64,000 bases of DNA, taken from contig JAKIUN010000007.1 of assembly GCA_021647505.1 (NCBI GenBank), positions 1 through 64,000 of the forward strand. The letters are read 5' to 3'. Source of the stretch: Gammaproteobacteria bacterium (lineage in GTDB: Bacteria; Pseudomonadota; Gammaproteobacteria; SZUA-152). Positions 387 through 2,096 of the stretch are shown here, one piece after another. The notes beneath the pieces were generated by a model. The model saw only the letters and a list, made by a program, of their open reading frames with translations. It was not told where the DNA came from and ran no database searches. Numbering within the stretch: position 1 is the stretch's first letter; each line of letters begins with the position of its first letter. The translations under genes and the position numbers were made by a program.

Positions 387-1121
387 TTAGTCGTCGATGC
401 ACCCCTGCGGTACTGGCAGGCCAGCGATGCGGGAGCCCTGGCGGGAGGGGCCGCCAGGGAACAGGCGGTAGAGGGCGTCGCGGTCGCTGATCTCGTTGCC
501 CAGTTCTTCACGCATGTGCTTCATTAGTATCTTTACCATCGGTGTGATGCCGTATTGGAAATAGAACTTGCGCAGGTAGCGCAGCACGACCCAATGTGCA
601 CCTGTCAGTTCGATGCCTTCCTTTTTGGCCAGCTGTTCGGCCAGTTCCTCTTTCCACTCCTCGGGGTTGACCAGGTTGCCACTGGGGTAGACCTTGATCT
701 GCCGATCTTGGAACTCGAAGCTGTCGCGGTAGTGTGGTGTGCTTGATGTTGTTTCGGTCTTTTTCACCTGATGGTTCTGTTCCAGCTCCGAGTCCAGCAT
801 GGGAACCGGGATGCCGGAGATCTTGCTACCCTGATACGTTACGCCACCGGGGAATAGGGTGTTGATGGCTTCATCGGTGGCGCGCTCAGGGCCGAATTTT
901 CTGGCAATTTCGCGTTTCAGTAGTTTGAGAATGGGCGGGATTGTGTAGGTGGCGTAATAGTCGCGCATTAGCTTGATGATGTCCCAATGGGCATCGGTCA
1001 ACACCAGTCCTTCGTCTTTTGCAATGGTCTGGGCGAGATCAGGGTTCCAGTCCGCGAGATTGGCCAGGCGGCCGTTGGCGGTGAGGCTGACAGGATTTCC
1101 GTTGACGACGAGCTGTCTCAT
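387..1121 (-). CDS. Tandem DsrC/TusE-like sulfur carrier fusion
   Basis: A 244-residue protein made of two DsrC/TusE/DsvC-family modules (about 1-110 and 132-244). DsrC and TusE carry sulfur on C-terminal cysteines for dissimilatory sulfur metabolism or tRNA thiolation. Module 2 ends LPVPQGC and keeps one cysteine, C241, matching the family CysA. The CysB site eleven residues before it is S230. Module 1 has S99 and D110 at the equivalent sites, so it has no redox cysteine. C241 is followed by three residues instead of being penultimate. The start at 1121 is chosen because AGGAGGAGA lies just upstream; the frame stays open for 24 more codons without a ribosome site. The single cysteine resembles TusE or regulatory DsrC-like proteins more than true DsrC. 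No dsrAB or tus genes are in the window, so the role is open. Confidence 0.85.
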   Translation of the reverse strand: MRQLVVNGNPVSLTANGRLANLADWNPDLAQTIAKDEGLVLTDAHWDIIKLMRDYYATYTIPPILKLLKREIARKFGPERATDEAINTLFPGGVTYQGSKISGIPVPMLDSELEQNHQVKKTETTSSTPHYRDSFEFQDRQIKVYPSGNLVNPEEWKEELAEQLAKKEGIELTGAHWVVLRYLRKFYFQYGITPMVKILMKHMREELGNEISDRDALYRLFPGGPSRQGSRIAGLPVPQGCIDD

Positions 1122-1205
1122 GGGCTTCTCTCCTCCTAATCGAGTGGTGCTTTTTTTCGGATATGTTTCATTATAGGGGAGATTTTCGTTCACAGACGTA
1201 GTCTT

Positions 1206-2096
1206 TCATGTTTGGGCGCCATCTTTGTCACGGCTGGCCTGTAACTGCCGCAGCATGGCGCGGGCGGCATTGGAGAGGGTGCGCTGGTGATGATGCACCA
1301 CGCCCAGCTGGCGGGTGAGGAGGATGCCGGGGACGTCGAGGGCTTGCAGGTCGTTGCTGAGCATGGCCTGTGGTAGCACGGACCAGCCCAGCCCCACGCT
1401 GACCAGCATTTTGATGGTTTCGAGATAATTGGTGGTCATGCTGACGCGCAGGCCGCCGACTTCAGCGCCGATGGCCTGTTCCAGCAGGGCGCGGGTATAG
1501 GTGCCGTGGGCGGGTAGGATGGCGGCATGGGCTGACAGTTGGGAGGGTTGGATGTGCCGCTGCCGGGCCAGGGGATGCTCCCTGCCGGCGACGATGCGCA
1601 GGGGGTCGATCCAGATGCGTTCGCTGTCGAGATCGGCCAGCGGCACCAGGGGCAGGGTGACGATGCCCAGCTCCAGCTGACCGGTTTGCACTGCGCGGCA
1701 GGCGGCCTCGGAATCCATGAAGCGCAGATCCAGTTCTACTGCGGGCCAAGCCTTGGTGTAGGCACGTAGAACCGGAGGCAAGCGGTGCAGACCGATGTGG
1801 TGGCTGGTGCCGATGCTCAGTCGGCCGTTCACCTCACCACTGAGGTTGGCGATCAGGCGCAGGCTGTCGTCGATTTCGGTCAGGATGTCGCGGGCGCGCG
1901 GCAGCAGCATGCGCCCGGCCTCGGTGAGGCTGATGCGGCGGCCGATGCGATCAAACAGGCGCGTGCCCAGTTCTGTCTCCAGTGTCGAGATACGTTTGCT
2001 CACCGCTGATTGGGTGAGATAGAGGTGCTCGGCGGCGAGGGAGAAGGATGCCAGCTCGGCGGCGGTGATGAAGGTCTTGAGGTTGGTGGTGTCCAT
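1206..2096 (-). CDS. LysR-family transcriptional regulator
   Basis: A 296-residue protein of normal LysR length. Residues 5-64 form the winged helix-turn-helix (AAEHLYLTQSAVSKRISTLE, then LGTRLFDR and LTEAG). Residues about 90-290 are the periplasmic-binding-protein-like effector domain (LSIGTSHHIGLHRLPPVL opens it). Its inducer cannot be read from the sequence. In some gammaproteobacteria a LysR gene sits beside leuC, and here leuC is the next plus-strand gene, but two lipoprotein genes lie between, so a link to leucine synthesis is only a guess. An inverted repeat 16 bases above the start is a likely operator. Confidence 0.88.
   Translation of the reverse strand: MDTTNLKTFITAAELASFSLAAEHLYLTQSAVSKRISTLETELGTRLFDRIGRRISLTEAGRMLLPRARDILTEIDDSLRLIANLSGEVNGRLSIGTSHHIGLHRLPPVLRAYTKAWPAVELDLRFMDSEAACRAVQTGQLELGIVTLPLVPLADLDSERIWIDPLRIVAGREHPLARQRHIQPSQLSAHAAILPAHGTYTRALLEQAIGAEVGGLRVSMTTNYLETIKMLVSVGLGWSVLPQAMLSNDLQALDVPGILLTRQLGVVHHHQRTLSNAARAMLRQLQASRDKDGAQT

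Follow-up and report, generated by a model that had tools for sequence, protein, structure and literature searches.

The window analysed here, a stretch of 64,000 nucleotides from a gammaproteobacterium, encodes on its minus strand a protein of the DsrC/TusE family that consists of two complete modules in one chain. The second module holds an invariant cysteine, the first one carries a conserved aspartate in the equivalent place, both halves are under purifying selection, and the form goes back to one origin and occurs in genomes with the reverse Dsr pathway. On balance, we think it somewhat more likely than not that the tandem protein is a DsrC/TusE-type sulfur carrier working with one cysteine, whose cysteine-less half would act as a docking or regulatory module. 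It represents a conserved double-module form of a known family and not a new kind of system. This form is apparently undescribed: in literature searches that covered mainly open papers we found none describing a double or fused DsrC protein, which is weak evidence.

Architecture of the tandem protein

An initial annotation of this DNA had proposed two DsrC/TusE modules in one chain. This and its coordinates proved correct, and the strand, which it had not given, is now assigned (Table 1). The Pfam profile PF04358 (DsrC) matches the protein in two full-length stretches (E = 1.5e-65, 218.7 bits against a cut-off of 24.9), and NCBIfam TIGR03342 likewise recognizes two stretches (206.7 bits, cut-off 53.5), so that by these profiles both modules belong at full length to the DsrC superfamily. 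They also align with clear similarity to each other and each to TusE of E. coli. Neither a stop nor a frameshift lies between them.

Table 1. Features of the tandem gene and its upstream region
Feature	Position	Strand	Remarks
Tandem DsrC/TusE-family gene	387..1121	(-)	244 aa; ATG at 1121; TAA at 387-389; one intact ORF
Module 1, residues 1-116	774..1121	(-)	Full DsrC fold without cysteine (Pfam/NCBIfam, AlphaFold2 model); genome search match 801-1106
Module 1 arm, residues 94-114, VTYQGSKISGIPVPMLDSELE	780..842	(-)	S99 codon 825-827 (CysB position); D110 codon 792-794 (CysA position)
Variable linker, residues 115-133	723..779	(-)	Length differs among homologues; pLDDT <50 at residues 119-127
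Module 2, residues 134-244	390..722	(-)	DsrC/TusE fold, one arm cysteine
Module 2 arm, residues 221-241, FPGGPSRQGSRIAGLPVPQGC	399..461	(-)	S230 codon 432-434 (CysB position); C241 codon 399-401 (CysA)
Tail I242-D243-D244 after C241	390..398	(-)	3-6 residues in homologues
Ribosome-binding site GGAGGA	1131..1136	(-)	9 nt upstream of the tandem-gene ATG; read off the sequence
LysR-type regulator, co-directional	1206..2096	(-)	84 bp upstream of the tandem gene

According to AlphaFold2, both modules adopt the full DsrC fold and their overall arrangement is predicted with confidence (mean pLDDT 88, pTM 0.83), whereas the linker and the C-terminal tail come out as disordered. A distant member of the group, from genome G144, reached a mean pLDDT of 84.5 and a pTM of 0.75. 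The high pTM suggests that the two modules pack against each other. A single module superimposes on DsrC of A. vinosum (1YX3) with a TM score of 0.88 (Foldseek), and the PDB matches to the tandem protein, by structure and by sequence, are single modules only (1YX3, also 1SAU, 2XSJ, 7SYB and others).

The alignment places serine at the CysB position of both modules (S99 and S230), whereas CysA is left only in module 2, where C241, the sole cysteine of the protein, is followed by I-D-D. The initial annotation had therefore read these positions correctly, and it was also right that module 1 keeps the fold without any redox residue, as borne out by the Pfam stretch and the predicted structure. Its description of the cysteine as displaced from the end holds in so far as C241 is the fourth residue from the end and not the penultimate one, but this is not unique to the fusion, since single-module homologues with two cysteines share this type of tail.

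Conservation, distribution and origin

In an alignment of 28 tandem homologues, the position of C241 is occupied by cysteine without exception (28/28), and in most of these proteins it is the only cysteine. The CysB position of module 2 is Ser in 27 homologues and Thr in one, and the second residue past the cysteine (D243) is always acidic (Asp in 26, Glu in two). In module 1, aspartate is found at the CysA position (D110) in all 27 homologues having this position, the remaining one (L061) showing a deletion of four residues there, and E112 of the same arm is conserved likewise (27/27). At the CysB position of module 1 there are 19 Ser, seven Thr, one Ala and one Val. The arm motif RQG[S/T][R/L]I[A/G]GLPxPQGC is nearly invariant among the tandem homologues. 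Within the genus of the window, module 1 has dN/dS values of 0.13-0.38 and module 2 values of 0.06-0.17; both modules are under purifying selection, the constraint being tighter on module 2. As the tandem form illustrates, a DsrC arm can extend past its cysteine with conservation retained.

The fused ORF was found in 25 genomes, among them one assembled as a single contig (G144), and these represent about ten family-level groups. It is carried by five other genomes of the same genus as the window (G002-G006, 81-89% identical) and by six genomes that belong to another genus in this family (G011, G013, G015, G016, G018 and G023, 48-51% identical). An assembly error or a decaying gene fusion is refuted by this recurrence, and the dN/dS values well below 1 in both halves speak against it as well; we found no support for it in the tandem gene and give it practically no chance of being correct. 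The sequencing error fusing two genes, against which the initial annotation had warned, is thus ruled out. The same applies to its second reservation, namely that the double module might be a common form throughout the databases: the tandem gene is present in 16 of the 369 genomes of a class-wide sample, again from about ten family-level groups, and in only one out of 399 genomes of a phylum sample, which is that of the window itself. The tandem form is uncommon.

Doubt about an assembly concerns G201 only, where a contig of 3911 bp (L096, G201:C160) encodes a tandem protein nearly identical to that of G013, a member of another family. G201 is devoid of dsrA and dsrE, and its tandem contig may be mis-binned. 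Another genome, G121, holds two successive tandem DsrC genes separated by a short ORF, which amounts to four modules (L102:8761-10571). A phage or plasmid origin of the tandem gene was considered and rejected, since the viral contigs searched contained no relative of the gene and the plasmid collection searched contained only single genes of the tusE type.

In a maximum-likelihood tree of 108 modules, which is based on few columns and has an arbitrary root, all first modules form one clade (100/99), all second modules form another (93/88), and the two clades are sisters (93/85). This points to a single ancient internal duplication or to the fusion of sister copies. The pattern fits a tandem form that arose once and then lost CysB in both modules and CysA in module 1. 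With the root being arbitrary, two-cysteine homologues whose tails read ..GCRIAGLPxPNDC[VI]D.. appear as the closest relatives with a single module. They stand near the tandem clade and share with it a tail of the type R[Q/T]GxRIAGLPxPxxC[VI]D that continues past CysA, but they are single modules and have kept CysB. These tail-extended proteins (L082-L088, L090; ..NDC[VI]D[WLF].. in L084-L088, L090, L109 and L110) are encoded apart from the canonical dsrC. Two genomes from the same family have a pair of such genes, located side by side in an unfused state (L109:6246-7025 and L110:9342-10128, minus strand) and adjoining a Rieske-like and a Nudix-like gene (names assigned by eye). Tentatively, these adjacent pairs might give a picture of the unfused precursor.

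Association with the Dsr pathway

The host of the tandem gene is a sulfur-oxidising bacterium, the genome of which contains five DsrC modules distributed over four genes. Next to the tandem gene there is a canonical two-cysteine dsrC (L001/L046) inside the cluster dsrA-B-E-F-H-C-M-K, a further paralogue that has CysA only and ends in KGCS, and another one that ends in SRRKGGY and has neither cysteine at the standard place. A search of this genome with TIGR03012 returned only the dsrE of the cluster, i.e. one DsrE/TusD gene. The earlier suggestion to look for separate dsrC, dsrAB and tusBCD genes was thus followed, and dsrC and dsrAB are present while a separate TusBCD was not found.

Within the class-wide sample, dsrA occurs in 14 of the 16 tandem-bearing genomes and in 104 of the 353 others (Fisher p = 4e-6, for genomes that are not phylogenetically independent). 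The two tandem-bearing genomes without dsrA are the doubtful G201 and G208, which is 81% complete. Conversely, the class-wide sample has 118 genomes with dsrA, of which only 14, about one in eight, possess the tandem gene, and this rarity places it outside the core pathway. There is no link to aprA, which was detected in 14 of 21 tandem-bearing genomes versus 33 of 37 others. The genome of the window itself (G000) has dsrAB and a completeness of 98%, but aprA was undetected; sulfite oxidation therefore probably proceeds by another route in this organism.

No conserved operon partner of the tandem gene was found. Its neighbours vary by lineage (the serS/rarA region, leu genes, glmS/ssb, aspS, a fumarase-like gene and others, named by eye) and have no sulfur gene in common, which is why the operon context was dropped as a functional clue. 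The pairing with the LysR gene is present in the genus of the window and absent from the other lineages with a tandem gene.

The number of DsrC-family modules per genome reaches eight (G016). One of the further paralogue clades ends in ESRRKGGY, usually lacks the arm cysteines (L004/L047, L118-L122, L124, L146) and is encoded in several genomes on the strand opposite to dsrC, some 6-8 kb away from it. We take this clade to be an RspA-like candidate. Other paralogue clades (L112, L116, L123, L126-L131, L134; L132, L133, L135-L138, L144) have arms ending in RPRxWSTG, KPRKLMLDV or DxxFGSxx.

Relation to known DsrC-type proteins

The tandem protein has the module fold, the arm motif LFPxGP....IAGLPxPxGC and, in module 2, CysA in common with DsrC of A. 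vinosum (1YX3) and A. fulgidus (1SAU). It differs from these proteins by having two modules per chain, no CysB in either of them and Asp instead of CysA in module 1, and by the 3-6 residues that follow CysA, whereas this cysteine is penultimate in DsrC. It is not a DsrC in the strict sense, since it does not possess both arm cysteines and is an orphan, the copy next to dsrEFH and dsrMK being the canonical one. With TusE of E. coli it shares the fold, the single arm cysteine at CysA and a residue other than cysteine at CysB, and the fold is also that of the DsrC-family sulfurtransferase 7SYB from A. baumannii. TusE, however, is a single module with a penultimate cysteine and works with TusBCD. 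The tandem protein scores 163.3 bits with the NCBIfam TusE equivalog (a distant member 163.2 bits) and does not reach the cut-off of 191 bits, and in the module tree E. coli TusE does not group with the tandem clade. We propose a tandem DsrC subfamily, which is characterized by two modules per ORF, Asp at the CysA position of module 1, the sequence PQGC[ILS][DE] in module 2 and one origin.

Possible functions

DsrC of A. vinosum is persulfurated exclusively on CysA, with CysB being irrelevant for sulfur binding, and the CysB position usually holds Ala, Ser or Thr in the TusE-type family members from DsrAB-free organisms (PMC3397948). An arm with one cysteine therefore agrees with persulfide carriage of the ordinary kind and, by analogy, the chemistry of the tandem protein is probably an ordinary one-cysteine sulfur hand-over. 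The initial annotation had concluded that another chemistry would be needed. This was overstated, as the loss of CysB is a known TusE mode (PMC3397948), but the single persulfide carrier that it had suggested is a good reading. The strict conservation of C241, the arm motif, the link to dsrA, the dsr genes in the same genome and the two predicted folds all count in favour of such a carrier.

DsrEFH and TusA-type proteins are the sulfur donors of DsrC, and module 2 would receive sulfane sulfur from donors of this kind and bind it to C241 as a persulfide. Without CysB, the DsrC disulfide or trisulfide cannot be formed, and hence the protein should not support the cycle with DsrAB and DsrMK; the sulfur would instead be passed on to some acceptor outside the DsrAB redox cycle. 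Module 1, with Asp in place of CysA, would be a built-in partner module that carries no sulfur and may offer a surface to which the donor or acceptor binds, or may mimic a loaded arm. The missing operon partner, the small share of dsrA genomes with a tandem gene and the TusE score below the cut-off count against a carrier, and the acidic residues behind C241 could keep the arm from inserting as deeply as a penultimate cysteine allows.

Alternatively, and in line with a further suggestion of the initial annotation, the protein might be a regulator, i.e. a DsrC dimer in one chain that senses the sulfur state by a persulfide on C241 and controls transcription or Dsr activity. RspA is reportedly such a DsrC-like regulator, proposed by Venceslau et al. 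in 2014 for members that do not need a cysteine, and RspA-type paralogues resemble the tandem protein in that they have the DsrC fold, stand apart from the canonical cycle and occur in dsr-bearing genomes. The orphan gene has no enzyme neighbours and lies directly behind a LysR gene in the genus of the window. In addition, DsrC folds hold a part resembling a helix-turn-helix, which may be reflected in weak Foldseek matches to LexA (E of 0.5 and worse), although these were not counted as evidence for DNA binding. However, the LysR linkage is limited to this one genus, and the acidic to neutral modules (pI 5.3 and 7.1, with module 1 acidic throughout) do not favour binding to DNA. Moreover, the tandem protein strictly keeps the cysteine that is described as dispensable in RspA. 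We therefore regard a regulator as unlikely.

It is quite unlikely that the protein modulates the DsrC cycle or serves as a decoy in it. In this case both modules would bind DsrEFH, DsrAB or DsrMK, and the protein would throttle or buffer the sulfur flow by means of a mixed disulfide or trisulfide between C241 and CysB or CysA of canonical DsrC. Having one cysteine in each chain would be well suited to a disulfide between molecules, the Asp that is invariant in module 1 could imitate a charged, loaded arm, and the tandem gene is linked to dsrA genomes that also have a canonical DsrC, but most dsr genomes lack it. Decidedly improbable is a pseudo-carrier fused to a carrier, in which module 1, its Asp resembling a loaded or oxidised CysA, would occupy the partner site and gate the transfer through C241, thereby diverting sulfur from the reverse Dsr pathway. 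If this were true, the protein would be a self-regulated one-cysteine sulfur relay.

It is very improbable that the tandem protein substitutes for TusE in cells that lack TusBCD, supplying MnmA with sulfur for the formation of tRNA 2-thiouridine. The TusE-like one-cysteine arm and the single TusD/DsrE gene in the genome of the window would agree with this function, but besides the score and the position of TusE in the tree, two DsrE/TusD genes are present in three of the genomes with a tandem gene, and 2-thiouridine is needed far more widely than the tandem gene occurs. A replacement of TusBCD/TusE is unsupported by the DsrE/TusD gene counts (TIGR03012).

Sulfur oxidisers possess several DsrC paralogues outside the dsr operon without assigned roles, as stated for A. 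vinosum (PMC3368242), and the Solemya velum symbiont has extra DsrC homologues that lack the two cysteines (PMC4287430). For such paralogues the tandem protein offers a clean natural test case, as it combines one cysteine per chain with a cysteine-less half, and a comparison of C241S with an exchange of D110 would separate a carrier from a scaffold.
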